Below, piece after piece: positions 5,785 through 47,640 of a DNA stretch of 64,000 bases; position 1 is the first letter of the stretch; every line of letters begins with the position of its first letter. The notes beneath the pieces are model-generated. The model saw nothing but the letters and a program-made list of their open reading frames with translations, ran no database searches and had not been told where the DNA came from. Source of the DNA: Rhytidiadelphus loreus (Eukaryota; Streptophyta; Bryopsida; Hypnales; Hylocomiaceae); assembly GCA_947034895.1 (NCBI GenBank), contig OX344763.1, positions 67,227,093-67,291,092 of the forward strand, read 5' to 3'. The translations under genes and the position numbers were made by a program.

Positions 5785-6345
5785 TTTACTATAAGAGAAG
5801 AATAATCGTCGAGTCGAAGAAACCCCACAATAATAGGGTAATATCAATGCAATAAAATTGATGAATAGGGAATCGTCGATTCGAGGATTACCCTCAAATT
5901 AATTATGACCAGAGAACATAGGCTAAAGAGTGCAATGGAATTCATGAGGATGGTATCGTCGACTCGATGATTACGCAAAAATAACCAAAGACTAGGAAAC
6001 ATCCGTCGAAGACTTCAATTGTCGACTCGACGATAACCAGACATTAATCTGGCCAGGGAACAATACATACAATAGAGTATCGATGAAAAAAACCATGATA
6101 ATGATAACATCCACAATTCAAGAATGAAGCCTATCATTGACTCGACGATAACATTCAAATTGAGCATGACAACGAATAAATCAATGAAACAGAATATTGT
6201 CGTTCTTCCAACAATGAAAATCACGACAACGATAACGTCCACACTTCATGAAAATAAACGGTATTGTCGACTCGAAGATAACACTTCCGACACTACGTGA
6301 TCATTAGGAATAAAAAAACTTATCGTCCGGTATGTATTGTCGACT
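5785..6345. promoter_or_regulatory. Palindrome cluster of element A, transposase leader
   Basis: At least seven copies of the A-type site ATCNTCGANTCGANGAT lie between the transposase start and 6345, for example GTCGACTCGACGATAAC near 6023 and TTGTCGACTCGAAGATAAC near 6265. Position matches the clusters upstream of the transposases of I (27.0-27.9 kb) and D (46.9-47.6 kb), where they fall in a 5' leader intron. Confidence 0.8.
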
Positions 6346-6359
6346 CGACACTACACTGT

Positions 6360-9300
6360 ATATTGCACTCCTATACGATCCTTCCGTATTTTCCGCCACA
6401 TTTCTCGGGATCCCAGTACCTATGCATTTAGTTCAGCTGGAACATCGACGTTACCATAAGGAAACGTAGTGAGTTCTACAAATTCACTAGTACCTTATTG
6501 CATAACTGCTGATAGGGTGTACCACGGAATCGACTAAAGTGAACCCATCCTATCTAATGCATAGAATGAAACATCATGATTGTAATTGCAAAATACTACA
6601 TGGCCGACAAGAACCTGCGATGCTAGAACTCAGTAGTTCGGGGATGGACCGTAATGTAGACAATCAGAAAACATGATGAAGAATGCAATATTGTAAGAAC
6701 CTGAAATGGGAGAATGCAGTAGCTCGAAGATGAACATGGAACGGCGCAACACGGAATTGATGGAGAGCAACATCAATACAAGAGCATCGACATGGAGAAA
6801 AATCTGAAAGGCGTGACTCCGTCGCAAAGGCAATTGTGCAAAATGAAGGAGTTCAACTGTGTCCGTGTACAAGGGGCGGGAAAATTTGAACGCGAATTTT
6901 CCAGAATTCAAAATATGTTGACTTCGAATGCGGAAAATCCGTTGCATTCATCATTTTCTTAACATTACTGAAGATTCTCCGCTCACATTCGGATGCACTT
7001 TTCTAAAGCTGGGTCTAGTGCGTAAAAGATGCAACAAAATTTTGTCCATTTACAGTTGTTGGATATTTTCAATCTAGTTGCAGGGACTACACTTTCGAAT
7101 CATCACATCCACTTGCCGCTATCTTTAGTGTAACGTTCTAAGCCATACTTTTTTGGAATCGCCCCGATGGCATGTTCAACCACCGCGTGAACTATTTTGG
7201 GGTTTGGGGCATTTAAGACTGTAGGTTTAGGGTTTATGACTTCTTTTCTTTCTTTTTTGAACAAATTGGAAACTCATTGCATTCAAAAAACCGGCCAAAC
7301 GGAAAGGTTGAACAAATGAAGTTAAAATGAATTAGGGTTTAGGGTTTTAAAATGTGTCATTTTTTGGTGTGGGCTAGAACATGCTAGAGGTTCTTTTACG
7401 ACAAGATGGATTTTTTACAGTGGAAGGGCCAACAATTTCCTGATGTCAAAAATCTTTACAAGAAATTCTTTCTTATGCATAGTTAAAAGAACTTCAGAAA
7501 TTACATCTATTCCTCATATTTTTCCAAATGGTTTTACAATACAATAGTAGTAGAATGTAGGGCAATTATTTAATTTTCACTAAATTTTTGATCTCTTATG
7601 TTACTCAATGTATTTGTAGATGACTTTAAGAAAACAAAATTCTTAATCTTCCATCACTACAATCTTTAATTTTTCTAGACTTAGATTATGTGCAAATAAA
7701 TACTAATTTAAGTTTTCTTATTTTGTATGTTAAAATATTATTTTCTAATGTACAATTTCAAAAATGAATAAGTAAATTCCTATTTCAAAATATATAAATG
7801 AAGAATGATTTATTCTCTTCAATTTAAAGATAAGTAAAAAGATAAATATAATGCCATAATTGTAATAGGTATGGACAAGAATACATATGCATAAATTCTA
7901 GAAATATTTTAGAAATCATAATGAAATTTTAGAGAAGTTTTGAGTTATTGACTTAAAGAAAACAACTACCCTTTTTTTATGGACTACATAATAATTTATT
8001 TCTGCATGTTGAATAAAGATTATTTTTATTGTAACTATTTAGAAGATCCACACAAAATATATAAAACCATTATTCATGTAATAAAATAGTTAGCCTTCTT
8101 TCAATACTACAAAATTTATAAATGAATGTTTTGACATTTCTAAGTGTCATTTTTTTGAAGAGTCTTGATTATTGAACACTATTTTTATTCTATATATAAA
8201 AAAATGCATTAAAATGAGACTAGAACTTCTTACAATTCATTGAAGAAGGCCTTATAATATGCATTGATTTAATGATATTCAAATATATTCTCTTCTAGTA
8301 GCCAACATGCTAATTAAATTTCAGTAGTTCAATAAGATTTTCCACCTTCTAGTACTATTATGACAAATTTTCCACTTCTTTTCAGTAAAGAGAATTACTA
8401 CCTATCTTTTTCTATTCTAAGATAGTCCACATTGCAAATATCATCTACGTCAAAAACGCCAAGAAATCGGGGACATTTTCAACAAACTTATTACAATCGA
8501 TTAATAAATGTACTCAACATGTCCCCGTCCCCTCCACCTTGCCTTCAAATCAGGTACAAATTTGCTTTATACTATACAAATGAAGCAGACAAAACCTTCA
8601 CAAATAAGGTGAGTGAGTAGTGTACTCAAGGAAATGGAAGACATAGAATTCAGATGGCTGCAACTATGCATGCTAAAATCTTTTGCAACAAATGTTACAT
8701 TTCAATAAAATTTGTTAGATTTTCTACCACATGAGATCTAATTATTGTGGTAAAATGTTCATATCAATCCAAGCAGTTTTGAATGCTTCAGAGCAATTCA
8801 AAGATCAAAACCCAGACACGTGCAAGTAATATTCCATATTTCAAGTATTAAGCATGGAATCATGAAAAAAATGTAGAGATGGTCCAAAATATTATACGTA
8901 CAAGTTGGAAATAATTCCTACGTTACGATTTGGTAAGCAGTACACAAGAACAACTTTTTTTAAAGATCTTGGATTGAATTCAAATGTAGGAGACCCTTGG
9001 CAGTAATTTCCCAACATCCACCAATTAATCACGAAGTGAAAAAAAAAATGTAGAGGTGGTTTCAAAAGTGACACGTACAAGTTGCAAATAGCTCCCCCAC
9101 TAATTAGATTTCATAGTTTGTCCATATCCATGCATGTTTTTTGAACTTTGGAATTGAAGATTGCCGGACCGTTGCGAGTGATTTTCCATAGACAGTTATT
9201 CCTATGAAATATTAAGCATGGAATCATGAAAAAAATGTAGAGATGGTCCAAAATATTATACGTACAAGTTGGAAGCATACGTATGAAGTTGGAAATAATC

Positions 9301-12599: not shown

Positions 12600-13085
12600 G
12601 TAGAGGATCACTGTATCATCGACTCGAGGATTCACCAGAACAAGAGAACAGGATGAGCGTTGACAAAAGCTATATCCTCGATTCGACGATCCAGGAGATG
12701 CAAACTCCTCCTTGATGTTAAATCAGCAACCATAAAAAATATTCAAAAAAACGATACAAAAAATACATAGTGAACATAATTGAAAAAAAAAGAATAAAAA
12801 TAATTAAACACATTTTTCAATTGAAACCAAAGGACACAAATTACAATAACCATTAAAAAATTAGTCAGTACATATTGTTGAGTCGAAGATACTTAAATGC
12901 CTGTTACCATGAAGAGGTCAGTAAAGCCGAATTACACAACACCTGCTAGGTTTACACTATTTATTTCCTAAATCGTTAATTGACGATGCACATAATGTTC
13001 GTTAGGAACAACAGTCAACAATGCTTGGCAGCTAAAAATAAAATAACACCCCCGCCAACCTATCGTCGAGTCGAGGATACCTTAT
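12600..13085. promoter_or_regulatory. A-type palindromes in the leader intron of gene 1
   Basis: Four copies of the site lie between the presumed donor near 12408 and the start at 13132: ATCATCGACTCGAGGAT (12616), TATCCTCGATTCGACGATC (12671), TTGTTGAGTCGAAGATAC (12873), TATCGTCGAGTCGAGGATAC (13062). Confidence 0.8.
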
Positions 13086-13131
13086 GCTGATGGGAGACTA
13101 ATTTTGAACAATGTGTTGCAAGGGTTGAGCA

Positions 13132-14325
13132 ATGGAGGTGCCTGATGAGTACAACTACATTGTAACAGAAAGCCACATGGAGCCATTTGTGAACCCTTTG
13201 CAAGATGAACCATTCATTGCAGAGATGGAGGGAACATATGGAAAACTTTGGAGATTCAAAGAGCATATCAGAAACTGGAGTTTCGGAGTCAGTCGCTGGA
13301 AGAACTTCGTGTACCTTCGGTACAGGGCTCAAGGAAATAACCAGTATATTCCATGGAACATGAAGGAGAAGGTGACGCTCATCGACGATTACCAGAACAA
13401 GTATGTCGTAATAGTCCTACGTAGCGTAGATGACACTGGAATCCCAAGAAAACATTGTCACTCAATGGTAATCGATGTGGATGAATATCACGCAAAGTTT
13501 GACTTAGATAACTTGATGACACTGGAATCCCAGGAAAACACTGTCACTCAATGGTAATCGATGTGGACGAATATCACGCAAAGTTTGACTTAGATAACTT
13601 GATGACCTTTCTACAAGGGTCAGAGATGGACTCCCTCAACGACGAATTCATAAAGTGCGGATATGTTCCGTGGAGTGACAGCATGGCTAAGTCGAACGCT
13701 AGTAAACTCCGTTTGATATGGCAAACCCTGGATCACTACGCACTCACCAATTCAAAGCCAGTCCCATCGGTGGGAGGGAGTGTCTCAAGGCAGGCGAAAA
13801 GAGCTTCAATTGGTGGTGACCAACCACAGTCGGGTCATATTGGCGAGGGCAGTCAAGGGACTAGACCTGGAAAAACAAGGTCCAAACCTCAAAAGCAAGA
13901 TCCTCCAATGTCAGAGCCAGGTGATTCAACTAGGAAGAGGCGAAAACCAAATCTTCCTGGTACTGCTGTGGGTGCTGGGAGTTTAGGTTCGGCCCTCACG
14001 ACCCTCGAAGCAACGTCGGCGACGTCAGAGACACCAACGCCGAATCATGAGAAGTTCACAAAAATCCAATCCGAATTTTGGGCGGACCACAAATCATGTT
14101 TCATTCTTGATGACAAAATTCGTAGGGTCCACATAAAGCAGTGCATCATAGCGAAAGACCACTACATTATTCGGACACTGCAAAAAGACAATGTGGAATC
14201 TGTAAAAAATGAGCTCATCCAACTCAGGGACATTAAACAAAGACAGAAAGTTTGTCTCACACTTGTGGACTTGAAGAATGGACTTCTAAATAAAAAGCCT
14301 GAGTCCTGGGACGAAATAAAGAAAG
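13132..14325 (+). pseudogene. Gene 1 of element A (ParB/methylase-like), 5' part, interrupted by element I
   Basis: The start MEVPDEYNYIV aligns with the starts of gene 1 in B (36858) and I (22072). The first ~150 residues form a conserved N-terminal domain (LYGKLWRFKE-like motif, KNFVYLRYR, KVTLIDDYQNKYVVIVL). A basic, low-complexity linker follows, then the first half of the ParB-like domain (VHIKQCIIAKDHYIIRTL, QRQKVCLT). Two lesions are visible: an 86-bp tandem duplication at 13432-13603 that shifts the frame, and the 17.3-kb insertion of element I right before the NGQHS motif. The exon resumes at 31611. The copy is dead. Its sites and divergence mark it as a subfamily distinct from I and B. 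Confidence 0.88.
13432..13603 (+). repeat. 86-bp tandem duplication inside gene 1 of A
   Basis: Two nearly identical 86-bp copies (13432-13517, 13518-13603), both starting GACACTGGAATCCCA. Because 86 is not a multiple of three, the first copy runs into a stop at 13555-13557, while the frame of the second copy continues the protein. Confidence 0.92.
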
Positions 14326-14350
14326 AACACTATATTCATTAAAATGGGAG
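14322..14350 (+). repeat. Left TIR and target duplication of element I
   Basis: AAAG followed by AACACTATATTCATTAAAAT and GGGAG. A second AAATGAGAG word sits 13 bp further in, a subterminal duplication also seen at the gene-3 side ends of E (52741-52778) and, inverted, C (45885-45934). It distinguishes the operon-side end from the transposase-side end. Confidence 0.92.
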
Positions 14351-14620
14351 ATTTCTAGTGAAATGAGAGCTTGGCAGTCACTAGAAATCATAAACTTAAG
14401 AGATTTCAGTATTAAATATAAGTAAATCAGCAATACAATGACCCCTAAAACACATATTGAAGTGCTATATTTAGAAAGTGGAAGCATATATAATAACTCC
14501 TTTACATTATACCATCATTGAATCCACAAATTTATAGGATGTATACACTTTCCTTGTCAAAATACATGCACTGACCCGCTACGGCATCCACAGACATCAT
14601 AAAGTAGAAAGGAAGGTCTC

Positions 14621-14845
14621 CAAATCAACTAATTCCATAGCAGAGGTGAACGGAAAGAAGCAAAAATACAAGATTCCATAGAAACAATTGCCTGACATGA
14701 CGATTGAGAGTGACCCTCAAACATTGCGTTGTGTGCAGCGCAAGGAGTGAGCGTCATTCTCAATCACCATGCCGGCAATTGTTTGTATGGATTCTCCTAT
14801 TTATGCTTCCTACAGTTCGCCTTCACTATAGAACTAACTCATTTG
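14621..14845. ncRNA. Long imperfect hairpin, MIRNA-precursor-like
   Basis: Arms of about 97 nt (14621-14718 and 14749-14845) pair imperfectly, about three quarters identical by eye, around a ~30-nt loop. The best paired part covers CCATAGAAACAATTGCC against CCATACAAACAATTGCC (right arm read inverted). Length, bulge density and loop size resemble plant miRNA precursors, but a decayed foldback MITE would look the same. It lies between the left TIR and gene 3, in a segment absent from the shorter ends of copies C and E. Confidence 0.5.
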
Positions 14846-15013
14846 AAGGCCTACATCACATTTACAATCATTAGATGCTCTCTATCCAAGATCCTTTCTA
14901 CAAAGTCTCCAACACAGCTTGAAACTCCAAGTACCGAAGTGTCATATGCACTTGCTATGTACAACTACATATACTAGTGATGCCTCATATGAAGGACCTC
15001 ATCGTCTCCAACT

Positions 15014-15335
15014 GTGTTGGCCTTGTGAGTAGAAGCTTCAAACGACGGGGCCATGGTTATAGGAGAAGGAACTGGACGATGGTCCCCGACATAGATGTAA
15101 GCAATCAAATCCTAGAACCGAAAACATGAAGGCGCCACTCCGGAGTTCCTCGAACGGCAATTTCACGCATGGTAATTTGGATTGCCCGCTCATGGAGCTC
15201 TAAAGAGCGACGCCTAGATGTTTAAGTCTGTACAGTTCTAGTGCTTAGATGTACGTCGGAGACCATCGTCCAGTTCCTTCTCCTATATCCGCGATCTCAT
15301 TGTTTGGATCTCATTGTTTGGAACTCCTACTCACA
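15014..15335. repeat. 322-bp foldback (long inverted repeat)
   Basis: The arms 15014-15160 and about 15190-15335 are inverse copies. The strongest blocks are GGCCTTGTGAGTAG and ATAGGAGAAGGAACTGGACG on the left, matched by their inverses at about 15325 and 15270. The pairing continues towards the centre with more mismatches. Non-coding; a transcript would fold into a long hairpin suited to small-RNA production. Confidence 0.8.
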
Positions 15336-15581
15336 AGGCCATCACAACCAAAGAAAACAAGGAACCTAGACTACCGGATCTGTCAAAATTGAACATGTTG
15401 CATCGAATGGCACCGATACAATCTCCAGGCATCGTGTCTTTTATGTTAGGTGGATTGTCGCTACCTACATCATTTACACTCTAGATATATGTCCCGACTA
15501 CGTAAGTGCGTGAAAACTATGAACTATTTAAAGACACTTGACCGTGTCTATTCTAGAATATACATTTATCATAGGGAACTA

Positions 15582-16211
15582 CTACTGGAGCGATTTACTC
15601 TTCATCTTCTCCATGGCCTTGAGAATTTCAGGTCCACGACTATATCCTTTTGCAATTTTCCCACCCTCGCGGATATGTTCCAGCCGTTTTGCCCTCAAGG
15701 ACCGTCGCTCCCAGGAATCCCATGATGGAGTTGAGCATTGACTGCTCGAAGGCCCATCATATTTCCTCTTCACTCTACCCATCGAAGATGATACACGGCG
15801 CCGAGTAGGTAAGGGTGGAATAACCGCCAGCTTCACGTCTTCTTCACATGCTTGAATTGGGACTTGCACGTCCACCACCAGGGTAGTCATTTGGTAATTG
15901 GCGTCTTCGTAAAGCCTTCTCTGCGTCAATCTATCTAATCCCGATGGGGACTGTGAAAAATCCTTGCGGTTCCTTGAGCGCAGTGGCGATGGTGAACAAG
16001 ACACCGGCAAGCGTGGCTTCCGATCAGGAGGACTGTCCACCACCCCGTCATCAACGGGCAAGACAGAGAAGTCCGTTGAGGAATTTACAGTGGGAGCAGA
16101 GCACAAGAAGTTCCCAGTACTGAGGATTACATATTGCCCGTAGTCGAAAATAGAGTCAGCCGACACTTGGCATTGAAGGTGACCAACCGGAGCGCGGAAT
16201 GTGCTGTCCAT
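15582..16211 (-). CDS. Gene 3 of element I: SP-rich protein with RxL-like motif and conserved C-terminal helix
   Basis: 209 residues, open throughout. ATG follows a 3' splice site (TTTCCAG), so a leader or earlier exon lies upstream. Seen in all four copies (I, B, C, E): an acidic stretch DDGVVDSPP, a basic Ser-Pro stretch CSPSPLRSR, then a short TQRRLYED word (RKLY in B, C and E), and in I, C and E a C-terminal block with STPSWDSWERRSL and GYSRGPEILKAMEKMKS. The protein looks mostly disordered apart from the last helix. [RK]xLY next to Ser-Pro sites resembles a cyclin-docking motif plus CDK sites; this is inference from short motifs. No known family recognised. Last gene of the operon; an AGCTCGANTCGAGCT palindrome precedes it at 16336. 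Confidence 0.72.
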   Translation of the reverse strand: MDSTFRAPVGHLQCQVSADSIFDYGQYVILSTGNFLCSAPTVNSSTDFSVLPVDDGVVDSPPDRKPRLPVSCSPSPLRSRNRKDFSQSPSGLDRLTQRRLYEDANYQMTTLVVDVQVPIQACEEDVKLAVIPPLPTRRRVSSSMGRVKRKYDGPSSSQCSTPSWDSWERRSLRAKRLEHIREGGKIAKGYSRGPEILKAMEKMKSKSLQ

Positions 16212-16433
16212 CTGGAAACCAACAAGGGTAAATTAGTAAAATTACAGTATAACCGTCCTCATCAAATATGGAAGTAACATTTATTGGTAGCATCAAAGAA
16301 ACTCCACAAATGATAAAAAGACACGTGAAGCTACAAATCAGCTCGACTCGAGCTGAAATGGAATTCTATATGGAATAAAAAAAATGACCACTCAACGCGA
16401 CGCGACCCGAACTACATACCTCTAGGTGCACCG

Positions 16434-17587
16434 CTAACTAACGCTAGCCGATCCGCGAACTACCTCCATAAGCTTGTCGTACTCTCGGTGCACCTTCTCT
16501 TCGTAGAGCATTCTACGCCCGATTCTCCCCGGACCATTTGACTGAAACGATTTGAGCCTGACGTTGCGATTGACATGCAATCGCCTAAACCAAGGCAGTA
16601 GGACATTTAGTAGAAATGAGTCCTTGTCCCCATTCCCCCGGTATGACCACGAATCCGGAAGTATTACATTCTCCGGCCTGTTCTTGATTTGTTTACGAGG
16701 GCTGTCGTCCACAATGACCGTGTTGTCACATGTGAATTGGCCACGCAAGCGAGAGAGGAGGTACTCCATATTTTTTAGGAACAAGTCCTTATCAGTTCCC
16801 GGTTCTTTATAGGATGTCAACCTCCCGGCCCTATCTCTGCACTTAATTGTTTTACAGGAGTCTTGCCCCAAAACGAGAACGGGCATTTCTCCGTCCCTGA
16901 ATAGGTACTTGGCAATCTCATCGGCGGTGGATTTCTTCATGGAGCTCCACACGGAAACAAACGCAATCTTCTGCAACTCAACTAGGAACGTGGAGCAATT
17001 TGGGCGGACGTACACCGCCTTCGGCCCAACAATCGCAGCAGCGGTCGATGAGTGCGGCATAGAATGGTGATTGAATCGTGCCACCGGACCCTTGGACTTC
17101 CAATCTTCGGCTACACATAGAATCCCATTGAGGTCCAGAACGACGTTGATCCACTTCTCTGCCACCCCGGACCTCAATGGACGATGAACGACCTCAGATG
17201 TTCCTACGTTTAGACCGCATTCCTGTTGAGAAACGGACGAATAGCGTATCCAGTTACATTCAGGAAACTCGCTCAGAGCGGACATCGCGTGAAAACAATC
17301 AAGAAGTCCACTACCAACGACACCACCCTACATATCGTAACATCTCATGATAACGTAGAAGAATATAGTACCTTCCTCCCCGAGGAACCCGAAGGTTCAT
17401 GCGCGTCTACAAGTGTGGTAGGTGCTGTATGCAATGCAGAAGCTCCGACGATAAGTTCATTCGAACGCAGAGTAGGTTCTGGGATGACATGGATGGTGGG
17501 TTCATCCAATGGGGCTTGCATATAAGACGGAAGGCATGAAGATTGACAAACAATATTCACATTTTCAGCACGGAGGGGGCCTGCCAT
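16434..17587 (-). CDS. Gene 2 of element I: FCP1/SCP-like HAD phosphatase homologue
   Basis: Two exons are likely: 17587 to about 17367 (MAGPLRAENVN start, donor GGAAGGTACT) and a second exon ending at 16434. The acceptor near 17285 is not certain. The second exon carries the HAD core: INVVLDLNGIL (motif I), VSVWSSMKKST (motif II) and VIVDDSPRK (motif IV), with the spacing and the ILPDSW stretch of FCP1/SCP phosphatases, which act on phosphoserine in the RNA polymerase II tail. The nucleophile Asp is kept, but the second motif I Asp, the usual general acid, is Asn in all copies. Plant genomes also have FCP1-like proteins with DLNG, so this is a recognised variant; phosphatase activity may be weak or absent. 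Lies between genes 1 and 3, separated by palindromes at 17735 and 16336. Confidence 0.82.
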
Positions 17588-17780
17588 TACATATTGAAGA
17601 AGTAACTGTCCATGAGAAAGTCATATATTACATGCTCTTTGAATGAGTTTCAGAATACAAAAGTGAGTCCAAATCTACTGAACTATATGAAAACTCTATA
17701 TCTATAGAAATGTACAACTTCCGCTAAATCATTCAAATCAGCTCGAGTCGAGCTGAAACTACAAAACAAGGAACAAGTGA

Positions 17781-20700: not shown

Positions 20701-22072
20701 GATTTCTCGGACAGCCCATTTCTTGCCATACGGTACGAGCACCCAAAATGTTGGTTGCCCATGACGGTTGCACGGCCACGAAGTGGTTCACTCGATTATA
20801 GTAGGCTGAAATGCTGCGTAATTTCTTTGCATCACTTGACCATACTATAAAACAATTCCATTTCCAGAAATGCTTTTTTATATCTTCACCGAAATCACTG
20901 CCCTCAGCCACGATTATCTTGCTAGCATCCACACTATGCTGACCGTTAATGATATAAAATTTTCCTTCCTTTATATCATCCCACTTCTTCGGTTTCACGC
21001 AGAAGCCCACTGGCATCATGCAGAGAGTCTGCTTGGTTGACTTATCAGGGATATTGGCCAGGTAATTGACCATGTCCTCGACAAGTTTGTCCTCCTTTGA
21101 CCGAATGTTGAAGGTTGAAGGGGCTCCCATCAATTGCTCGATAGGCATCTCTTTCTTTTCGTCAACCTTGAAGACGTAAGCGTCTTCACAGGTTGTCCAG
21201 AAGCGCTTGTAGGCTTCGCTGACAAGCTTGTAGTCCGGCCTCTTGTCTGTTGCTCGGGAGTGAGGAACATTAAACATTTCCTCAACATAGCTTCCTTCAA
21301 GAAGGCCTGACTCTTCAGACACCTTCTGAATAGGTTTTCTTGTTGATGGAGAAGCGTCGCTTTTCTTCCCAACCTTCCGCGCCGGTGGTGTACTTTGAAC
21401 TAAGGATTTTCTCTTTCCTCAACCTCCAACAGAAGCTTGTGTTGCTTGCCTTCGGGAACCTTGACTGCCTCCTCCGCTCACTAGGTCCATCGATACAGAC
21501 CTTGGCTGGTTCATTACAGTCTGCATTTCGAGCTTCCCCTTCAGAGTGTTGAAGTCGTTGAATAGCGACCGAATCTTGGAACACAGTCGCTTTCCGTTGA
21601 GGGGAGTCCCGTTTAGGTTCTGATATTCCTTCTTGTCTATTTTTTTCTCGAGTTCTTTGACTTCCTCACTATACGGTGTAGGTTCTAGGCTTCTAAGGAA
21701 CGGTGTCATGCTGAACGGAATCAGAAGGGAGTCAATGCAGATTGTGAAGTGGTATTGCTCTGCATTTGGGATTTCGCGTTTCGTAGTGACACATTTCACT
21801 TTTATAAGCGGGTGCGCATCTACTTCGACGTCCTTCACTTTCTCTTCAAAAGACAGCTGAATGAATACTTGTGCGTTTTTGAATTTGTATGTGAAGGCTA
21901 TGAGGTTCGTGAATGGCACCATAAACAAACTCCAGGCTTCCACTCTCTCTGGCTCTTTGAATTCCCAGTATTCTCCTTCAATGAGCATTTCGTCATCATC
22001 TTGACACTCCTCAGGGAATTGAACTTCGGTCTTCCTGAAGTACATGTTGAGGCTCTCTAGCTGGTCTTCCAT
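17781..22072 (-). CDS. Gene 1 of element I: ParB-like plus degenerate DNA-methylase-like protein (one premature stop)
   Basis: Three exons, all in phase 0: 22072-20621, 20469-19123, 18983-17781, about 1333 residues. Order: N-terminal conserved domain (1-160); basic linker; ParB/Srx-like domain ending with FYIINGQHSVDASKI and an N-containing SAYYNRVNH helix (exon 1); a helical middle region; then a Rossmann-like part with LGLIDFRNLP, LQMEFYLWLIRKF and CVFSGFTRGKF, continuing across the intron. The last three match the order DPPY, HPTxKP, FxGxGT of beta-class DNA methylases with catalytic residues lost. Exon 3 adds a coiled coil and acidic EDVPDSEDPEGG repeats. TGA at 21419-21421 interrupts exon 1 in a Gly/Arg/Lys-rich linker; CGA to TGA is a likely origin. 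The intron donor at 20620 is followed within a few bases by a palindrome. Confidence 0.8.
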
Positions 22073-22124
22073 TCTGCAGAGAATGCATCCAGTAAGTTTG
22101 TTAACACACAGTCCTATGTTCAGT

Positions 22125-23945: not shown

Positions 23946-23949
23946 CCCC

Positions 23950-24620: not shown

Positions 24621-24624
24621 TCCA

Positions 24625-31364: not shown

Positions 31365-31439
31365 TCTAGCGTAGGACCTAATCTTTACTTATATGAATTT
31401 GAAGACTAGTATTATACAGAACAAAATCAATTGTACATA

Positions 31440-31606: not shown

Positions 31607-31610
31607 AAAG

Positions 31611-31927: not shown

Positions 31928-31929
31928 GT

Positions 31930-36059: not shown

Positions 36060-36802
36060 TACCAACAGAAATTATCTTCGGCCCGAAGATAAAGAGAACA
36101 AAAAAATAAAAATAAAACACAATTATCCTCGAGTCGAGGATAAAAACACCAACAAAACCGACAGATATGTAAAAAAATAAAATAATTATCCTCGGACCGA
36201 GGATAAAAACCCAACAAACCCAACAGAATTATATAAAAATAAAATAATTATCCTCGGGCCGAGGATAAAAATCAAACAAAACCAACAGAATTGTACAAAA
36301 ATAAAATAATTATCCTCGGGCCGAGGATAAAACCCAACAAACCCAACAGAATTCTATAAAAAGAAAAAGAAAACAAGAAACTCCTATCCTCAAGCACGAG
36401 GATAATTATTTTATTTCCTAACTTCTAAAAATCAAATAGTTCTATAATAAAATAAAACGAGGAATAATTATCCTCGGCACGAGGATAACTACTCAACGAA
36501 GAACATAGCCGAGGATAAAAATAACCGGAAATGCACAAATATAATATAAAAACTAAGAACATGTAGGTGTTATGCTCAACTCGAAGATAAAATAAAATAA
36601 AAACTGTACAATGTAATGAAAATAAAAAAGAGAACGTATAGTATTATCTTCGTCTCGAAGATACAGAACCGTAACTTTGATTTACAAATGAATTCTGTAT
36701 GTTGATCACTGTCTTATATAATTTGTAGCCTTGCACAGAAAATACGTAGACGAATTACATTAGTTAGAACTTCAATCGTCTGTTATCTTCGAGGCGAAGA
36801 TA
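36060..36802. promoter_or_regulatory. B-type palindrome cluster in the gene 1 leader intron
   Basis: About eleven copies of TATCYTCGNNNCGARGATA between the donor at 35602 and the acceptor at 36845, for example at 36075, 36122, 36188, 36250, 36310, 36470, 36645 and 36783. Several are spaced 60-65 bp apart in an AAAATAAAATAA context, so part of the cluster grew by tandem duplication. Confidence 0.92.
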
Positions 36803-36857
36803 AAATCAATGAATACCTCTGATCATCATGGTCTGTTATGCACAGGTTCATACCAGC

Positions 36858-39800
36858 ATGGCTGCAGATACTGAGTACGATTACTCAGCTACGCTCCCGT
36901 TTCTGGAGCCATTCAACAAATGGGTGGATGAGGAGCCCTTCATAACGGAAATGCCAGAGCTCTACGGCAAGCTCTGGCAATTCAAAGCCGTTGTCGACTC
37001 TTGGACATTCGGTGTCAACCAATCCAAGAACTACATCTACCTCCGTCACCGAGTGAAAGACAACGGGATGTACGTGAATTGGAACTTGAGTGAGAAGGTC
37101 GCACTCGTGGAGAACCACCAAGACAAGTATATTGTCATCACCCTACAAGCGTATGACAACGCTGGGAGGGAAACGAAACATACCCACTCCATTGTCTGCC
37201 ATGAAGATGACTCGGTGGGAGTTTTCGACTTCGACAACCTCATCGCCGACTTGCACTCGGCAAACCACGACACCTTGGCTGTAGACTTTATTTCAAGGTA
37301 CCACCCCTGGCTAAAAAGGAACGCTAGGGTCACGGCCAGGAAAGTTGGATACATGTTCCATAAGCTCACAGAGCACGCTAAGGAACATGTCCACAAAGCA
37401 CCTGCTCGAACGAGTCAGGGTCGTGGTCAACAAAGGCAGGAAACTGCCAATGAGACAAAATCAACGTCAGGAGTGCGTGGCCGCACAGGGAGTAGAGGAA
37501 GTGGGAGAGGGACGACCCGCGCTAATGCCCCGAAGCGGAAGGACCCGGAATCCACTACCGGCGAGCCTACTGGGAAGCGCAAGAAATCTGTAGCGGAGAC
37601 TCGCCCGGCTACCGCTGGCAGTTCAGGCTCTATACTGACGAATGTGAATCCACGGAAGCCATCAGATAAGAAGCCGATCGAAAAACATGAAGTGGCTGGA
37701 GCGTATCAGTCAGATTTTTGGAAGGAAAATGGCAAGTGCTTCATTTTTCATCCACAGATCTACACAGTACACATCAAACAATGCTTCCTGGCCAAAGAAA
37801 GATATATTATCCGGAAGCTAGAAATGAGAATGGTGTTTGAGATGAAAGACACCCTCGTTCATCTTGGCTCTGAGCAGCAAAGACAAAAACTTTGCTTGAC
37901 ACCGATAGATGCCAATAATAAACTTCTGAAGGAGCGTCATAAGGATTGGGATTCTATCAAGAGCGGAGGTTTCTACATCATTAATGGCCAGCACAGTGTC
38001 ACTGCTGCCAAGCTCCTACAACAAGGAGGATGCTGTGAGACTCGGAAGATCGAGTTGCAGACGTGGGAGGCTATAATCGTCTGGACTAGGGACCCGAGAC
38101 AGCTCACAACTATTTCAAAATGGTGCAATGCCTCCAATCACCTCATTCATAGTCAGCCAACGTGGGGGAACCAAATTTCCGCATGTAGGCAGGTTTGGAA
38201 GGAGCTCAAGCGGCCTACCAACATCGAGAATGAGGGATTGGTGAGGCGGAACAAAGCCGTGTACAACCTTGCAGCATACAAGGTAGGTCCTCTTATCTTC
38301 GAGTCGAAGATAAAATGAACATGTACATGATCTAGTTGTCTAAATGTATTGCCTCAACAGTGTTAGTTACTTGTAATTTAATCGTCAGGGATGTCAGTCA
38401 CAGTTATCCTCGGTTCGAGGATAACGGTCAAGAAATGAGTATGCATTGAGTTGTGTACTTACTGCATTGAATATCCGTCTCCACAGGATTTTGTCGACGC
38501 TGTCATGATCCGATATGGCAGCATCAACCCGGACAAGGAGGGAGCACAGGTCAAGCTCGCATCGGATGTCAAGAATGAAATCCGAATTATTACCTTGGCC
38601 GATGAGACTTACCAGATGTGGGAGGAGTTCCTCCAAAAACACATGGAAGGATCACTGATTGATCCTGTGACGCGCAAACCATTCAAAAGCGCAAAGACCT
38701 TCAACGAGAAGAATTTCTCATTGAAGAGGGAATTTTTCAAGCACATGGGACACTTCACAGACATTGATCTGAAGGATTATGTCCTCCATTTGCTTGGGAG
38801 AACAGAAGGTTGCACACGGGACTACCCGAAGGTCTCAGTGGGCGCTTCAAAGATATTGCGCGAGGACAATTATAAAGCCGAGCACTGGGTAGAGAGGAGG
38901 AAGCGAAAGAAAGTCATCATGGAGGAATTCATGGCCCTCGATAAGTCCTTGAAATTCAAGGACAGACATGGGGAAGTCATTGACGTGGCGTGGAAGCAAT
39001 GGAAGCGCGACAACATGTTTTCCTCGGCAACGTGGGATTTCCTCCTCACCGCCCCTCCCAACCAGTTCTTCGTTAAGTGCCTCACCAACGAGGCGAAGAA
39101 GAAGATAGCAATAGACTACAAGGACAACCCAAAATTGTCGATGGTCTATAACATGTTCAAGACCTTCTTGAAAATGAAGAAGCGGGTGGAGCCAGTGGGT
39201 GGGGATGTGTTCATTCGGGGTCACCAATGCTATCCCCAAGCTCTTGTGACCACCCATGTGTGGCCCTATGTCATGAGAGACCTCCGTCTCGCCGTCATAG
39301 ATTTCCGAATCCTCCCCAGACCAAATCCAGGATCAGGTGACAGTCCACCATGCTTGCCGTTGCTGAATTTTTTAGCGGATCACCTGAAGCCGGTGCTGTG
39401 TACTCCGGATGTGTGGTTATGGATTATGGGAAATCCATACGACATGGACGCGGCAAAGAAATTTGCGGCATCGAAGATGACAGGGTACAAAGTCAAGGTG
39501 TCCAACTACCTGCCAAGTAAGGCAGAGAGGATGGACAACTCGACCAACCGTGCGTTGGCGCCCCCGGTGAAGCTCCTTTTTGTATTGAAGAAATGGGATG
39601 ACGGGGAGCCAAGATATAAGGATGTAGTAAAGAAGGTCTACTCCACCGATGACATTCCTTATTACACGGATTTTCAGAAGAATACCGAGGCAAAATATAG
39701 AGTCCATCCAAGTGAGGTGAGGATGGAGTTCTATATTGACATTCTCCAGAGTTTTACAGTGACTGGAGAGAACGTCATCGGCATCTACTCAGGCTCAAAG

Positions 39801-41353
39801 TTTATGATTGCTGCCAAGGTGAGACTTCATGTTTGGCTTGCCCTTATCTTCGGCTCGAAGATAAGAGTGTCTTATTGCTAGTTATCTTCGGCTCGAAGAT
39901 AATAGTGTCTGTTGGTGTTGTATTATGTGCAGGATACCTCTATGTATCTTGTATGTTGGTGTGTTAACCTCGAATCGAGGATAAATTCTCACGGGTTGAT
40001 AATGATTATTAACGACTGCTTGTTCTTCTGCAGATGTATGGTCTCTATTATTATGGCCTTACTGACCGGCATGCATCCCAAAAACTTCGAGAAATGGCGA
40101 AGTATGGCAGTAAATTAGACATCAACGATTTTTGCCATGAAAACTCGCCATATCTTCCAAGTTATGAGCGACCTCGTAACCTTCAAACTCCAGATGTGGA
40201 CTCGGAGTCCACCCCCTCAATTGATGGCAATGCGGGTGCTTCAAGGGCGGATCGGGATTTCCCTGGTGACGAGGGTGCTTCCAACCTCGGCATCAATGAA
40301 TACGGAACAAATACCAATATTGTTCGAAGAGGAAATGTGAAAGACTCCCACGTACAGGACCAGGGCCCCGAATCTGCCTCCAAGAGTATCGAGGACTTTG
40401 GAGCGGGTACGCGGAAAAAAAAAAAGATCGGAAAGAAGCCCATGGAGGAGATCATACCGGACATCATCATCAGCGATGTGGAGGACTCCTATTCAGATAT
40501 GGAGGACTTTAACTATGATGGTCTAGATGATGGTGGCGCGGGTCCGTCACGAGAAACCCATGGTCCGAACGCACCTGCCGAGGTACTCCCTGGCCATGTT
40601 ATCGAGTCCAGGGGGCCCTCAGACCCACCTCATGTTCCTCTCCGTCCTGTGAAGCAGGAGCTCAAGGATTTCTGGAAAAAGAGAGAGGAGAGGAAGGCCT
40701 TCAAGAGGGTAGAGCAGTCAAGAATAAGGGAAGAGGACCTAGCGGAGAAGGAAGCTTTGAAGAAAGAACTAGAGAAATTGCGTGAAGAGAATGTTTCTCT
40801 GAGAACGCGATCACAGGATCCCTCTGTCTCTAACCCTGATGCGCATGACGGTGGTGGTGCTTTAGGAGCCTCAGGTCCTCAGACCGCCGATGAGGATTAT
40901 CCTCGAGGCGAAGATGATCCTCTCCCACCTTCCGGACAGGATATCGCTCCCCCTTCTCCTCCTCCAGTGGAACAAGACCAGGGGTCCTCTCTTCCTGTTG
41001 ATCGATCAAATCAACAGATCCAAGAAGAGATTGCTCCCTCTAGAACTGGGACAGAGGGAGCTGATAGAGATGTGGATTATCCTTGAGCCGAGGATAATGT
41101 GAGTGAGCCCCCTGCTTTGGAGGCACAAGCGGAGTCTGTCCCAGAGACACAAGAGGAGCATGACGTTGTTCCAGATCCCATCCCCCCTCCACCTGAGCCG
41201 CGAGTACTGGAGGTGGAGATAGAGTTTGAAAATCCCCCGGACGACGACGACGAAACTGTAGACTACGGGGAATATTTGGATGAGGACGCCGGACACCTGG
41301 AGTTCGGTCAGGTACACTCCCCTCCATCGTCAGATCCCTACGATATTTCGTGA
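36858..41353 (+). CDS. Gene 1 of element B: ParB-like plus degenerate DNA-methylase-like protein
   Basis: Three phase-0 exons: 36858-38282, 38487-39818, 40034-41353. The start MAADTEYDYS follows the leader acceptor TTATGCACAG. Exon 1: N-terminal domain (LYGKLWQFKAVV, KNYIYLRHR), basic Arg/Gly/Thr linker, ParB/Srx-like domain (KERYIIRKLE, QRQKLCLTP, FYIINGQHSVTAAKLL, ISKWCNASNH). ParB proteins usually have GERR or GQHR here; the Arg is Ser. Exon 2: helical segment, then LRLAVIDFRILPR, YRVHPSEVRMEFYIDIL and GIYSGSKFMIAAK, which follow the DPPY, HPTxKP and FxGxGT order of beta-class N6/N4 methylases without the catalytic residues. Exon 3: coiled coil (ALKKELEKLREENVSL) and acidic Pro-rich tail. 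TGA at 41084-41086 lies inside a coding palindrome and trims the last ~90 residues. Confidence 0.85.
38287..38425. promoter_or_regulatory. B-type palindromes in intron 1 of gene 1
   Basis: TTATCTTCGAGTCGAAGATA begins about 10 bases after the donor at 38283; TTATCCTCGGTTCGAGGATA lies at about 38403. In element I the equivalent intron also has a site right after its donor. Confidence 0.88.
39840..39985. promoter_or_regulatory. B-type palindromes in intron 2 of gene 1
   Basis: Three sites, at about 39843, 39882 and 39964 (TATCTTCGGCTCGAAGATA twice, then AACCTCGAATCGAGGATA), fill the short intron between exons 2 and 3. Confidence 0.88.
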
Positions 41354-41625
41354 TTGAGTCTGTCGAATGTGATGTGATGGATGTTTGTTTTGGCTTCCAT
41401 CATGTTCATATTCCCAGTGAGAGACTCTCATGCCAGTTCCTTCTGTCTGACAGGAGGGAGTGGACAGTCCCTGATTGTGAAGCGTGGACGAACTGCCACT
41501 CTGTGACTATGTTGTAGCATAGTGTAGATACCGCAACGGGCTTTAGTTGATACTTGTATACAATCGGCTAGAAATCAACGAAACCGTTAGACCGGGTGTA
41601 TCATAAATTATTTTGAAATAAATAT
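41354..41625. other. Gene 1 to gene 2 intergenic region of B
   Basis: No gene and, unlike the equivalent gap in I, no palindrome that I can see. Contains the presumed 3' end of gene 1. Confidence 0.5.
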
Positions 41626-42678
41626 ATGTCAAACTTCTCTTCAATGCGTGTAGTGTCTAATGAATTGATATTGCCCATGCTTGTGCCCAGCGCGGACAAC
41701 TTAGAAGTGTGCACCGCCCGTTGGCACTCAAACAATCACTTAACGGAGGGGTTCTCCAGTCGCATAGTGGGGTTCCATGCTTTTCTCCGTTTTATGGGTC
41801 GCCTGATTCTACCTTTCAACAGGTAACTACATCTCTTTCGTGTTGTGTTTGATCAGGTAGTAACGGCAGGTCGAAAAAAGAATGTGCCGCGGAGTGTGTC
41901 CTCGTTAGTGGTCCAACCGCGACAGAAGTGGTTGAATATCGTGTTCGATTTGAACGGAGTGCTGTGTGAGAGCCAGGGTCAAGGGCCCCATAAGAAGAAA
42001 AAACATTACACAGTCCGAGATAATGTATTTTCCCATCGAACCCCAACCCTCATTGGGACGAAGGCCGTCTTCGTTCGTCCCAATGTGTGCGAGTTCTTAG
42101 ACGAGGTTTCAAAGATTTCGAACCGCGTCGTAGTTTGGAGCTCCATGTTCAAGAAGACGGTGGAGCCCGTTGCCAGTTTCCTCTTCCAGAACTGCAAGGC
42201 TCCCTACCACATCCTAGGTCAGGACAACTACAGGAGGGTAGAAACCTCGGAAGGGAAATTTCTTCATCAAGCTGGGAGTCCGTGGAAGACACTGCTCTTC
42301 AAAGTGCTTGATGAGGAATTGTTCCTGGACCCTCAGGATCCCAACTCATTCAACAAGGACAATACCATTCTGATTGATGATTCTCCGCAAAAGGGCATCC
42401 TCAATGAGAACGGGAATTGCATATACCTTGAGAGTTGGAACCCGTACACGCGTGGAGACAATGTGCTCGTCGGCACTCTCATTCCGTGGTTGAAGAAACT
42501 ACATGAGGAGTGTCCACTCGGACGCCTGCGTGAGTTCGTAGATCGGAACCGTATAGGTGTGGCGCCCTTGGTCGCAGCAGACGATCAAGCCAATTATATA
42601 TTAGATGGGATGAGGATGTCCGTCAAGGCATTCGAGTCGCGATTTGTGTTGCGGGGGATGAATCTAGTGATTGAATAA
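41626..42678 (+). CDS. Gene 2 of element B: FCP1/SCP-like HAD phosphatase homologue
   Basis: First exon starts at 41626 (MSNFSSMRVV); its donor is not certain. The second exon begins after GTTTGATCAG at about 41859 and is open to 42678. It has the HAD motifs LNIVFDLNGVLC (motif I), RVVVWSSMFKK (motif II) and ILIDDSPQK (motif IV), with an FCP1-like FVRPNVCEFLDEV strand-helix between and an LGQDNYRR segment shared with I and E. As in the other copies, motif I reads DLNG, so the second Asp is missing. FCP1/SCP enzymes act in the nucleus on phosphorylated proteins; whether this one does is unknown. The gene is intact as far as it can be read. Confidence 0.83.
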
Positions 42679-42867
42679 GAGAGACGAAGGGAGAAATAGA
42701 CTTCTTAGTGTCTCAGTCAATCATAGAACTCGTTGTACATTATTCTTGTGAATACGGATTTTTTTGTACATTTCATTTTTGTGAATTAGTAAAATTTTGA
42801 AATTTAATCAAGATTTCTGGCCTCTTTGGGTTGTATTGTTTTGTTCAACATGTGTTTGTCTTCCAAG

Positions 42868-43020
42868 TTGAGTTATCTTTGGGTCGAGGATAATTGTGGA
42901 GGATGTGTGTTATCTTTGGGTCGAGGATAATTGTAGAGGATGTGTGTTATCTTTGGGTCGAGGATAATTGTAAAAGATGTAAAAGATGTTTGTTTATCTA
43001 TAGGTCGGAGGATCCGTTCT
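42868..43020. promoter_or_regulatory. Three tandem B-type palindromes between genes 2 and 3
   Basis: Three 38-bp direct repeats (about 42872, 42910, 42948), each with TTATCTTTGGGTCGAGGATA followed by an ATTGT and GATGTGTG context, plus a weaker fourth site near 42996. A clear case of local site multiplication. Confidence 0.9.
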
Positions 43021-43045
43021 ACACTCCCTCCAACAGAGGGAACCA

Positions 43046-43927
43046 TTGACGAGGAGCTTATTGTCTGGATCGGATGTGTCACTTTCAATGAGGTCCGGCT
43101 CGATTGGAGGGAGCTTCGTGCCGTCCTCCTATTCTAAGCCTTACTTCCTGGGCTCGGCCACCGATGCGGCTTCGGCGGCCATCGACTTCTCGAAGGGGAA
43201 TGTGGAAGAAGGCGTGGTAGATAGCCCACCTAGTCGAGGTCCCGTGAGGACACCGATTTGCTCACCGTCGCCGATGAAGAGGGCCAGCTCCACCCCAAAT
43301 CGATTGCGTTCACAGTCGCCGACTTTGCGAACCCCAAACACACCGCACAGGAAATTGTATGCGGATGACGAAGACCAGGGTATGGATCCTCGTCTCGAGG
43401 ATGGAGCGGTGTTGCCGGTGACAATTGCACATCAAGCTGTCCAGAGCGAGAAGCTCAATGTGGATCCCTTGGTTGGGGATCAGATGAATGAGGTACCGTT
43501 GGGTGCATGCAGAGCACAGCAGGTTCCACGCCTCGTAGAGATTCCTATCTCGTTCCCCTCAAAATCCGTGGGCGGAGTATCTTTGCCTTCGGCTGTACCT
43601 ATTTCCCGCCGAATGACTATTCGAGACCTACGGCGGTCAAATTACACACGATCGACAACAACTGCCGATCCGTACATAAGCACTGTTAATAGATCGATAC
43701 CACGGCCGCCTCCTCGAGATTCTAGGTCTCTTTCCAATACCGAGATTCCGCGATGTGAACGAAAGCGAAAGAGAGAGGCCAAGGATTTAATGCTGATGGG
43801 GATGTTCAATACTTTCAGTAAAGACAGTGGATCACCCAAGCCTTCTCGACGCGAGGATATCTTCAGAGGATTGGCCAAGTTGAAAGCCTTGGAGGCAGCC
43901 AAGGAGGCAACAAATAGCAGTTCTTAA
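43046..43927 (+). CDS. Gene 3 of element B: SP-rich RxL-motif protein
   Basis: The frame is open from 43046 (non-ATG at that point, so the first exon or true start lies upstream or at a later ATG such as 43076) to 43927. It has the family signature VEEGVVDSPPSRG, ICSPSPMKR, then TPHRKLYADDE, followed by a longer middle than in I. Its C-terminal end is a basic KRKREAKDL stretch and a helix DIFRGLAKLKALEAA aligned to the GPEILKAMEKMK helix of I, C and E. The conserved CSTPSWDSW block of I and C is not obvious. Two degenerate palindromes lie inside the coding region (about 43390 and 43845). Function unknown. Confidence 0.72.
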   Translation: MTRSLLSGSDVSLSMRSGSIGGSFVPSSYSKPYFLGSATDAASAAIDFSKGNVEEGVVDSPPSRGPVRTPICSPSPMKRASSTPNRLRSQSPTLRTPNTPHRKLYADDEDQGMDPRLEDGAVLPVTIAHQAVQSEKLNVDPLVGDQMNEVPLGACRAQQVPRLVEIPISFPSKSVGGVSLPSAVPISRRMTIRDLRRSNYTRSTTTADPYISTVNRSIPRPPPRDSRSLSNTEIPRCERKRKREAKDLMLMGMFNTFSKDSGSPKPSRREDIFRGLAKLKALEAAKEATNSSS

Positions 43928-45195: not shown

Positions 45196-45527
45196 AACAC
45201 GATATTCGTTATTTTGGGAGTTTTCCTATCTCCCAATTTACGTCGGTTTGTGCTGATCTGAATCACAGATTGGGAAACTGGAATTTTTGAATGGCCATAA
45301 CTTACTCATAATTTTGTCCAAACTGGGCATATGAGATGTTTTTTGACATCTACAGATTCCGTAGATGTCAAAAAACACCTCATATGCCCAGTTTGGACAA
45401 AATTTGAGTAAGTTATGGCCATTCGAAAATTCCAGTTTTCCAATCTGTGGTGCATATCAGCTCGAACCGAGCTGAACTGCATACTCCCAAAATCATGGAA
45501 TTCTCCCAAAATAACGAATATCGTGTT
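45196..45527. mobile_element. MITE-2, 332-bp foldback with family TIRs
   Basis: Left end AACACGATATTCGTTATTTT, right end its exact inverse, with a perfect 4-bp duplication CTTA (45192-45195, 45528-45531). Most of the interior is itself a long inverted repeat: about 45270-45350 pairs with 45360-45448. One I-type palindrome (AGCTCGAACCGAGCT) lies at about 45457. It sits in the short 3' flank of copy C. Confidence 0.92.
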
Positions 45528-45884: not shown

Positions 45885-45934
45885 ATATAACTCTCATTTC
45901 TCTGGAAAACTCCCAAAGATTTGAATATTATGTT
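45885..45934. repeat. Operon-side terminus of copy C, inverted
   Basis: Ends TTTGAATATTATGTT, with the CTCATTTC and AACTCCCAAAG words that mirror the left ends of E and I (subterminal ATGGGAG duplication). It closes copy C about 420 bp after gene 3 once MITE-2 is discounted. Confidence 0.65.
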
Positions 45935-46369: not shown

Positions 46370-46410
46370 CCTGAAGATGGCGTTCTTTTCTTCCCGCCAT
46401 ACATTGAGGT
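46370..46410 (+). promoter_or_regulatory. Transposase promoter block of D with E2F-like core
   Basis: AAGATGGCGTTCTTTTCTTC then CCGCC, aligned to 26403-26424. The TTCCCGCC core is preserved although surrounding bases have drifted. Confidence 0.45.
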
Positions 46411-46924
46411 GTACGTCGTCACCCCAATTCCAAACCTCATTTCCAACTTCTTCTTCAATTGTATAAACCTCTGTGCGCATTTCTTCTTTCTGGATTGTAT
46501 TCAGCTTGTAATGATTAGTTTTATGCATGCTTGAGGAGGCTAGAAGGAGGTCTTTAGGAGGACATTGCTTTGTGTACCATCACATTCAAAGAAGAGGTGT
46601 TTCACCGCACTTCGATTACTGTAAGTCAGACCCACTTCCTTAGCCACTGCACTGGTCTACGTTCATACAATTTGTAGACTTATTTTTGAGATTTTTGTTC
46701 GTTGAATTTGTATTCATATTGATGTGTATACTTCTATTCAATCTGTGCATTTCAAGAACGATTGTGATGTTGCATTAAGTATGCAAGTCATTTTGATTTC
46801 CTCATCAGCCGGTTGTCTCTCCAAGCACATATCTCCATAATCGAATAATTGTAGTGTGAACTCAACTCCGATAATTGCGACACAAACCACGGGTACTATT
46901 AATAGAATCATGTTGTGATGGACC

Positions 46925-47640
46925 AGCATATCAGCTCTATTTGAGCTGATGTGTAGTTTATTCATATCTGAGTCCCATGCTGAAGGAATAATAAATTCCG
47001 AGAATAGTAATCGGTCTTGCTAATCAACTCGACTCGAGCTGATTTGCAAATCACAATATATACTTTACGTTGGCAAGTCATTGTGTATCATCTCCATGGA
47101 CTCATGATTCATTTTAAATTAAGAGACTTTGTGTGAATATTGAATGACTATGGTTTAAATATACAATGAACCTGAATACAATGAACTTGAATACAATGAA
47201 CTTGAATACAATGAACTCTTATATACAATGAACTTGAATGTGAAGGTGTAAATAAGCTCGAGTCGATCTAATATGAAAATCAATGAAAATCGGCCTTATG
47301 CATATTGAGGTTAATGAGATTGATATATTGTCCATGCATATCAGCTCGACTCGAGCTGATATGCAGTATATTAGCAATGTGGGTGAAATATTCGATACAA
47401 TTCATAACTCCATACTTTAATCTGTTTGATAGGCCTTTATATTTACATTACGTTTCCACATGTCTTGGTTGCATATCAATTTTCCTTCTGTTTAAATATC
47501 CAATCATGAATTTATGTATAACCGAGTAAGGTGTTCTAGAATCTGATCAGGAATCAATTTGAATATGTTAATTTCTAATTTTATAAGAAGACTTGATAAT
47601 TTGGGAGAACTACAAATCAGCTCGACTTAAGCTGATTTGT
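46925..47640. promoter_or_regulatory. I-type palindrome cluster of D
   Basis: Five sites, at about 46930, 47025, 47252, 47340 and 47618. Only 47340 is a full AGCTCGANTCGAGCT; the others have one to three changes, in keeping with decay of this copy. A 15-bp unit (AATACAATGAACTTG) is repeated about four times at 47165-47235. Confidence 0.85.

Follow-up and report, generated by a model that had tools for sequence, protein, structure and literature searches.

The 64,000-nucleotide stretch of the moss Rhytidiadelphus loreus genome analysed here (the window; contig OX344763.1, positions 67,227,093 to 67,291,092) contains several copies of one transposon family, as self-comparison revealed, and these copies carry short palindromes whose arms differ between lineages of the family. 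Element I is bounded by a 25-bp terminal inverted repeat (AACACTATATTCATTAAAATGGGAG from 14326, with the inverted copy ending at 31606) and a 4-bp target duplication, AAAG. It lies within gene 1 of another copy, element A, which is interrupted at 14325 and resumes at 31607. Its layout is that of a divergent pair, with the DUF7869 gene T1 pointing rightward and gene 1 leftward; on the left side, the two-exon gene 1 is followed by a coiled-coil-like gene (in our reading), a NIF-like gene and a sixth gene. Element B (36.0 to 45.93 kb) has the gene-1 side and lacks T1, and in element A both T1 and gene 1 are fragmentary. Palindromes also occur in element D and in two miniature inverted-repeat transposable elements (MITEs). 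The copies and their main genes are listed first, with strand where one applies.

14326-31606: element I, 17.3 kb
27972-30809, plus strand: T1 of element I, transposase-like, Pfam match to DUF7869 (PF25273)
19069-22072, minus strand: gene 1 of element I (exon 1 20621-22072, intron 1 20470-20620, exon 2 from 20469 to about 19084), with one in-frame stop
36828-39878, plus strand: gene 1 of element B (exon 1 36828-38282, exon 2 from about 38451); the open reading frames (ORFs) extend into the introns
13129-14325, plus strand: gene 1 of element A, 5' part, cut by element I and going on at 31607
31607-31967, plus strand: gene 1 of element A, 3' part of exon 1, then the intron-1 palindrome 31951-31967
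4631-5577, minus strand: T1 fragment of element A, 39-42% identical to T1 of I
47758-51407, plus strand: element D, transposase copy and right terminal repeat with its end at 51407
3775-4156: MITE-1, three class-C-like sites (centres 3908, 3980, 4052; spacing 72 bp)
45196-45527: MITE-2, in the 3' part of B, target duplication CTTA, one class-C site (45457-45475)

The original prediction described many odd-length palindromes with a TCGA-like core, and a symmetry scan bore this out. Scoring nine base pairs about a three-nucleotide centre, with a 12-bp minisatellite excluded and 12 dinucleotide shuffles as control, we found at least eight of nine pairs at 41 sites (shuffle mean, 8.6) and all nine at 17 (0.4 in shuffles). 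Read towards the centre, the half-site consensus is TGCANATCAGCTCGA in I, which makes the site longer than originally described, TTATCYTCGR in B and TATCNTCGA in A. TCG beside the centre is common to all site types. The arm is TATC in A and B and TCAG in I, D and the MITEs; the three arm types first proposed for A, B and I thus reduce to two main classes, T and C, since A and B share TATC. Between arm and core lies a position that varies in A (G 14, C 5, A 4, T 3) and is C or T in B; at offset 5 of class T, G or A is favoured in A (8 of 12 half-sites) and B-like copies have C or T almost exclusively.

Allowing up to two mismatches, the window contains 32 class-T sites (12 in A, 20 in B) and 21 class-C sites (14 in I, five in D and one in each MITE); two of the three MITE-1 sites have four mismatches to the 19-mer, the remaining one two. 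The rest of the window, 32-36 kb and the hAT region included, has no site of either class, in agreement with the predicted absence from 32-34.5 kb and the hAT region. Five Markov-1 control sequences yielded no class-T site and, in one of them, a single class-C site. One A-type site (31951-31967) belongs to intron 1 of gene 1 of A and was separated off by the insertion of I. The sites are distributed as follows.

22135-22661: class C, upstream of gene 1 of I (centres 22144, 22265, 22461, 22598, 22652)
20505-20611: class C, two in intron 1 of gene 1 of I (centres 20514, 20602; the second starts at intron position 10)
16338-19046: class C, between and after genes of I (centres 16347, 17747, 19037)
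27039-27843: class C, upstream of T1 of I (centres 27048, 27163, 27315, 27514, 27834)
46931-47635: class C, upstream of the D transposase gene (centres 46940, 47033, 47262, 47350, 47626)
36072-36803: class T, array of nine upstream of gene 1 of B, partly in 62-bp tandem repeats
38293-38424: class T, intron 1 of gene 1 of B (centres 38303, 38414; the first starts at intron position 11)
39844-39984: class T, intron 2 of B (centres 39854, 39892, 39974)
40897-43404: class T, others in B (centres 40907, 41087, 42883, 42920, 42957, 43394)
5742-6352: A-type (class T, variable fifth position), upstream of A's T1 fragment
12615-13078: A-type, four upstream of gene 1 of A

The sites thus lie in non-coding DNA: in both divergent promoters, in introns just past 5' splice sites, in intergenic gaps and in MITEs. 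Intron 1 has donor sites GTAAGT in I, GTAGGT in B and GTATGA in A; intron ends are TTGTAG in I and CTGCAG in intron 2 of B. A further gene-1 relative (35% identity), with an intron and donor GTAAGT, is present on CADCWO010000074.1 (L001), a 4.2-kb contig filed under a cyanobacterial metagenome-assembled genome; given this moss-type transposon gene with its intron, the contig is probably a eukaryotic contaminant. Of its five class-T sites, one lies in intron 1 and the other four precede the start. In all four of these copies (I, B, A and L001) a site starts 10-24 nt inside intron 1. The transposase promoters of I and D, whose T1 proteins are 85% identical, agree in 73 of 84 site columns and in 389 of 794 (49%) other columns, a contrast that is an upper bound because the aligner is drawn to the sites.

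Exact matches to AGCTCGANTCGAGCT occur at 659 places genome-wide (control, 0) and to the class-T sequence TATCNTCGNNNCGANGATA at 4497 (reversed control, 2); these counts cover AGCTCGANTCGAGCT and TATCNTCGNNNCGANGATA, not TCAGNTCGNNNCGANCTGA. Eight random 4-kb stretches contained no site (sites in tandem are not independent of each other in this comparison, nor in the covariation and wobble counts below). Two outcomes were named as contradicting the original interpretation, namely arms mixed at random and sites equally common outside the family; neither was seen in the material examined. Positions were examined for 50 of the AGCTCGANTCGAGCT places and 100 of the TATCNTCGNNNCGANGATA places. Among these listed matches, 99 of 100 class-T places fall into six clusters, several with ~40-bp tandem arrays, the exception being a lone site at C1:1528609; the listed AGCTCGANTCGAGCT places leave out ~37 Mb of chromosome C1 (C1:36.9-74.2 Mb), a gap that may reflect avoidance by the family or a centromeric region.

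We fetched 13 loci, picked by their sites and all on chromosome C1, so that the link was tested from site to gene only. Six class-T loci contain 145 T sites and no C site, and gene 1, present in five, is B-like (76-87% identical to B, 31-35% to I). Seven class-C loci contain 50 C sites and no T site, and gene 1, present in six, is I-like (57-93% to I, 24-30% to B). Two of the six class-T loci contain T1 as well as gene 1, with ~7.6 and 14.7 kb between the two genes. We also examined ten 3-kb loci at listed class-C places, three of them near or overlapping one of the 13; these have C sites (up to two mismatches) and no T site (up to one mismatch). Four of the ten are MITEs without coding matches, and three of these have both ends, with 4-bp duplications AACA, ACAA and ACAA. 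At the right end of one class-C locus (25760k; L030, C1:25770001-25777000) there is a second NIF-like gene, 48% identical to that of B and 37% to that of I, with no T site; it probably marks the border of another element.

Many public gene-1 proteins extend past the 5' splice site into intron 1, so that the palindrome can be read as a translated signature. Among B-like proteins, 14 of 35 carry the T signature and none the C signature. Among I-like proteins, 16 of 85 carry the C signature and two have a T hit: P0156, which carries C as well and whose T hit is the coding motif NILGARI, and P0140. The same signatures were found in one of 100 T1 proteins and in 0.14-0.33 shuffled proteins per set and class. 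These homologues may include the present species. The intron signature is found in 14 of 37 cases in its strict form and in 33 of 37 in a relaxed form, which was written after the tails had been seen. On a gene-1 tree of 114 rows, with 16 labelled T and 15 labelled C, a single change suffices to explain the labels (shuffle means, 10.7 or 10.6; none of 500 shuffles as low). Here P0156 was labelled C, P0140 was left unlabelled (it has a relaxed C signature besides its T hit) and the three window copies were labelled from DNA; ten of 124 rows were lost as short or without motif, including L001, P0206 and P0217, all typed. Arm class therefore tracks the gene-1 clade in genome loci and public homologues alike. 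The two arm classes were not mixed in any window element or fetched locus. Strict homogeneity within an element is not supported at the variable position, where P0002 and P0186 carry two variants each, as does P0149 in the relaxed reading only.

Class C is further divided at offset 10: elements I, D, 14974k and 25760k have A there in 81 of their 92 half-sites, and 17479k, 31371k, 34982k, 35034k and 12620k have T in 75 of 80. Gene 1 is 77-95% identical inside the first set (I, 14974k, 25760k) and 54-66% across sets; inside the second (17479k, 31371k, 35034k, 12620k) it is 57-89% identical, as diverse as across sets and hence not a tight group. This comparison includes gene 1 from three loci of one kind, 14974k being a near copy of I, and four of the other. 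In L043 and L011, exon 2 is 50-53% identical to that of I over 54-58 residues, and half-sites resembling TCAGGTCGG...CCGACCTGA are mixed with AGCTCGA half-sites. Judged from these sequences, the arms appear to change along with element divergence, through few independent changes.

Gene 1 of I and B are only 25-31% identical. Exon 1 of B encodes a domain with a ParB/Srx fold (about residues 308-443), and residues 250-463 of the exon-2 ORF may resemble a beta-class DNA N6A/N4C methyltransferase of permuted fold. A catalytic DPPY-like motif IV is absent: both window copies and nine of ten fetched copies covering the motif have DFR.LP, and the tenth has a stop codon within it. The in-frame stop in gene 1 of I (21419-21421) falls in the linker; five of six other fetched copies are stop-free there and the sixth could not be judged. 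Overlapping 92-bp direct repeats, 97% alike, occur in gene 1 of A (13429-13520 and 13515-13606, spanning 13429-13606).

We propose that the palindromes are two-fold symmetric, double-stranded binding sites through which an element-encoded protein acts on its own lineage, MITEs included, and that this protein is the gene-1 product, with an anti-silencing role; we put the chances of this reading at about even. The candidate reader would combine the ParB-fold domain with the DNA-methyltransferase-like domain with its non-canonical motif IV, and would bind as a dimer, the CpG-containing TCGA core being read in common and the arm conferring lineage specificity. Loading on the arrays might keep element promoters and introns free of silent chromatin, in the manner of the Arabidopsis VANC proteins; this is the least certain step. 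The gene-1 product may also regulate gene 1 and the transposase, rather than cutting the ends. The anti-silencing role is suggested by analogy with VANC in motif placement, tandem arrays and motif sub-types.

Several observations weigh against this proposal. No ParB sequence-profile match to gene 1 was found in Pfam, NCBIfam or PDB sequences; one of 26 gene-1 members matched the ParB-like phrog_723, at E 0.019 and amid other chance-level rows. ParB proteins that bind cytidine triphosphate (CTP) have a GERR motif. At what we read as the equivalent place, gene 1 has a nearly invariant INGQHS, with GQHS instead of GERR. The methyltransferase-like domain gives a weak fold match, in a model with a predicted local distance difference test score (pLDDT) of 40. 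The link to the gene-1 clade amounts to one deep switch plus one or two shallower ones, and with two or three switches only, site and protein may have descended together without functional matching. Within the window, D has sites and T1 and no gene 1, the converse of B. Finally, T1 sorts like gene 1: it is ~40% identical to T1 of I in all three class-T loci holding T1, and 69-97% in all four such class-C loci.

Since T1 sorts with the classes no less than gene 1, T1 could be the reader, which is the main competing explanation; the palindromes would then be internal transposase-binding or promoter-autoregulation sites. In CACTA/Spm elements, subterminal motifs are bound by the transposase. In favour of this, T1 is preceded by clusters of sites in A, I and D and adjoined by sites in other copies, it agrees with site class at all seven fetched loci that contain it, and MITEs, which depend on transposase, retain sites. 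However, sites are scattered over intronic and intergenic DNA, in I as far as ~8 kb from either end, and B in the window retains full arrays without T1. Nor is the offset-10 division cleanly sorted by T1 identity (I-D 85%, I-34982k 84%, D-34982k 78%; D is of type A, and 34982k is of type T with only three sites). We regard a T1 reader as somewhat unlikely. A more elaborate form of the gene-1 proposal is rather doubtful: a bacterial-type ParB and inactive DNA-methylase protein would serve as a eukaryotic self-recognition clamp that loads at parS-like palindromes in promoters and beside 5' splice sites, spreads along the element and shields it from CG methylation, arms and protein diversifying together so that sister lineages sharing a nucleus do not cross-react.

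The two arms also covary within elements, which independent half-sites would not do, and this weakens a simple dimer reading. At offset 5 of class T, arms are symmetric at 124 of 169 sites, against 88.4 expected from independent half-sites, and at 25 of 34 isolated sites, against 14.3. Class T also covaries at offsets 11, 12 and 14, marginally at 10, and class C at offsets 12 and 15. Three explanations offer themselves: a reader that requires matched halves, templating of the arms on each other in repair, or a role for hairpins. The last possibility would have the palindromes act as RNA hairpins near 5' splice sites or as extruded DNA, for example in splicing control or as a bound folded nucleic acid. 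A stem with a three-base loop predicts covariation at offset 5 and none at offset 1, beside the centre, as we find (64 observed at offset 1, 67.2 expected). Sites come after 5' splice sites, and genic sites covary at offsets 11 (22 versus 13.7) and 12 (24 versus 14.7), the latter confined to genes and the former weaker on the T1 side. Unmatched offset-5 pairs, read in the gene sense, favour the T-G wobble over C-A by 12 to 4 in genes and 11 to 3 on the T1 side, an excess to which tandem copies or strand-biased mutation could contribute. However, covariation at offset 5 is not confined to genes; it is significant on the T1 side (47 versus 41.0) and also at sites that precede the start of gene 1 by more than 250 bp (34 versus 27.0), where wobble is not favoured (0 to 3). 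Element A has no covariation at offset 5 (3 of 13 versus 4.2), the consensus is mostly a fixed sequence, and MITEs have sites without genes. We consider hairpins quite unlikely.

Templated palindrome repair would also fit the covariation if the sites were old repeats kept uniform inside each element, through duplication or repair of one arm from the other, with no reader at all, and many sites do lie within ~40- or 62-bp tandem arrays. Such neutral homogenisation is very unlikely given a site 10-24 nt into intron 1 in gene-1 copies as diverged as those of I and B, and in A and L001; given also that the I and D promoters retain sites while other columns agree at 49%, and that MITEs retain them too. 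A host protein such as a transcription factor, with lineages exploiting different host factors through different arms, could account for the concentration of sites upstream of both genes, but is hardly credible when class follows the element genes and all 13 site-bearing loci and all ten 3-kb loci hold family genes or ends, with no host targets seen there.

The remaining features of the family concern its ends and other genes. Termini begin AACACTA..., and the target duplications are of 4 bp (AAAG, CTTA, AACA, ACAA, ACAA); that of MITE-1 in the window matches over 3 bp only. CACTA/EnSpm elements make a 3-bp duplication beside CACTA termini, a pattern that the present family does not fit. NIF/FCP1-like genes are present in B, in I and in a third element (54.06-54.9 kb, minus strand), all with DLNG at the motif place, where active NIF/FCP1 members have DxDx(T/V); the family possibly keeps the gene as a putative pseudo-phosphatase. 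A piece of another family member (52.73-55 kb; NIF and sixth gene) has a terminal-repeat remnant and no palindrome. Related ~180-bp tandem repeats, ~73-77% alike, occur to the left of A's T1 fragment (2044-4625) and in the spacer of I (24634-25761). A large internal fold-back (45260-45450) adjoins the single palindrome of MITE-2, and a long minisatellite of 12-bp period at 55.9-57.5 kb is open in several frames on both strands.

41845-42678, plus strand: NIF/FCP1-like gene of B (PF03031); homologue in I at 16434-17285, minus strand
45890-45934, plus strand: probable right terminal repeat of B (AACATAATATTC... on the minus strand)

Among known systems, maize Spm/CACTA TnpA binds repeated CpG-bearing subterminal sites that matter for mobility and epigenetic state. 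An element protein (here, the candidate reader) and repeated CpG-bearing sites are shared with the moss family, whereas the moss sites are palindromic, internal and intronic, and terminal repeat and target duplication differ. VANC of Arabidopsis is the one lineage-specific, site-directed transposon self-recognition system that we found described. The motifs of VANDAL elements, which are Mutator-like elements (MULEs), occupy introns and intergenic DNA and precede the transposase gene, and they form tandem arrays and sub-types (PMC5735166). The moss family likewise concentrates its lineage-specific motifs in the element's non-coding DNA, partly as tandem arrays; shared features are short element-specific motifs in intron, intergenic and terminal non-coding DNA and upstream of the transposase, often in tandem, sub-lineages with motif variants, and an extra element gene beside the transposase (PMC5735166, PMC10398659). 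In contrast, the VANC21 motif YAGTATTAY is non-palindromic and arrayed in one orientation, and VANC carries DUF1985/DUF287, neither of which was found by Pfam scans in gene 1 of B, I and relatives. T1 matches DUF7869 alone in Pfam, at E up to 1, and no MULE-type (VANA) transposase.

VirB, a plasmid-borne anti-silencer of the ParB family, is similar as a mobile-element protein of the ParB superfamily that spreads from a palindromic parS-like site against silencing, but it is bacterial, opposes H-NS and has the CTP-binder arginine motif that gene 1 has not kept (PMC10653881). Bacillus cereus Bce_0392, a ParB-methylase fusion, has a ParB-fold domain followed by an adenine-methylase-like domain, whereas gene 1 belongs to a eukaryotic transposon, is split by an intron, has DFR.LP for DPPY and gives a weak second-domain fold match (PMC5512222). 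Fungal transposons with a TET/JBP dioxygenase gene beside the transposase may act on silencing by host DNA methylation; their enzyme works on methylcytosine, and no lineage-specific sites are described in the available part of the source (PMC12730594). Our literature search found no paper on DUF7869, on a NIF-carrying palindromic DNA transposon or on palindromes in moss DNA transposons, and, judged by title, no such element among papers on ParB in moss transposons or palindromic plant anti-silencing.

If our proposal is correct, mosses would have a second, apparently independent system of this kind, with a different protein. Its thousands of simple symmetric sites, with several arm variants within one genome, would allow study of how protein and site change jointly without loss of function. 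The closest named relatives of T1 of I are moss proteins (Physcomitrium patens, 70%; Ceratodon purpureus, 64%). Physcomitrium patens is a genetic model with efficient gene targeting, and since its relatives of T1 (P0038) and gene 1 (P0171) are on record, direct testing would be possible.

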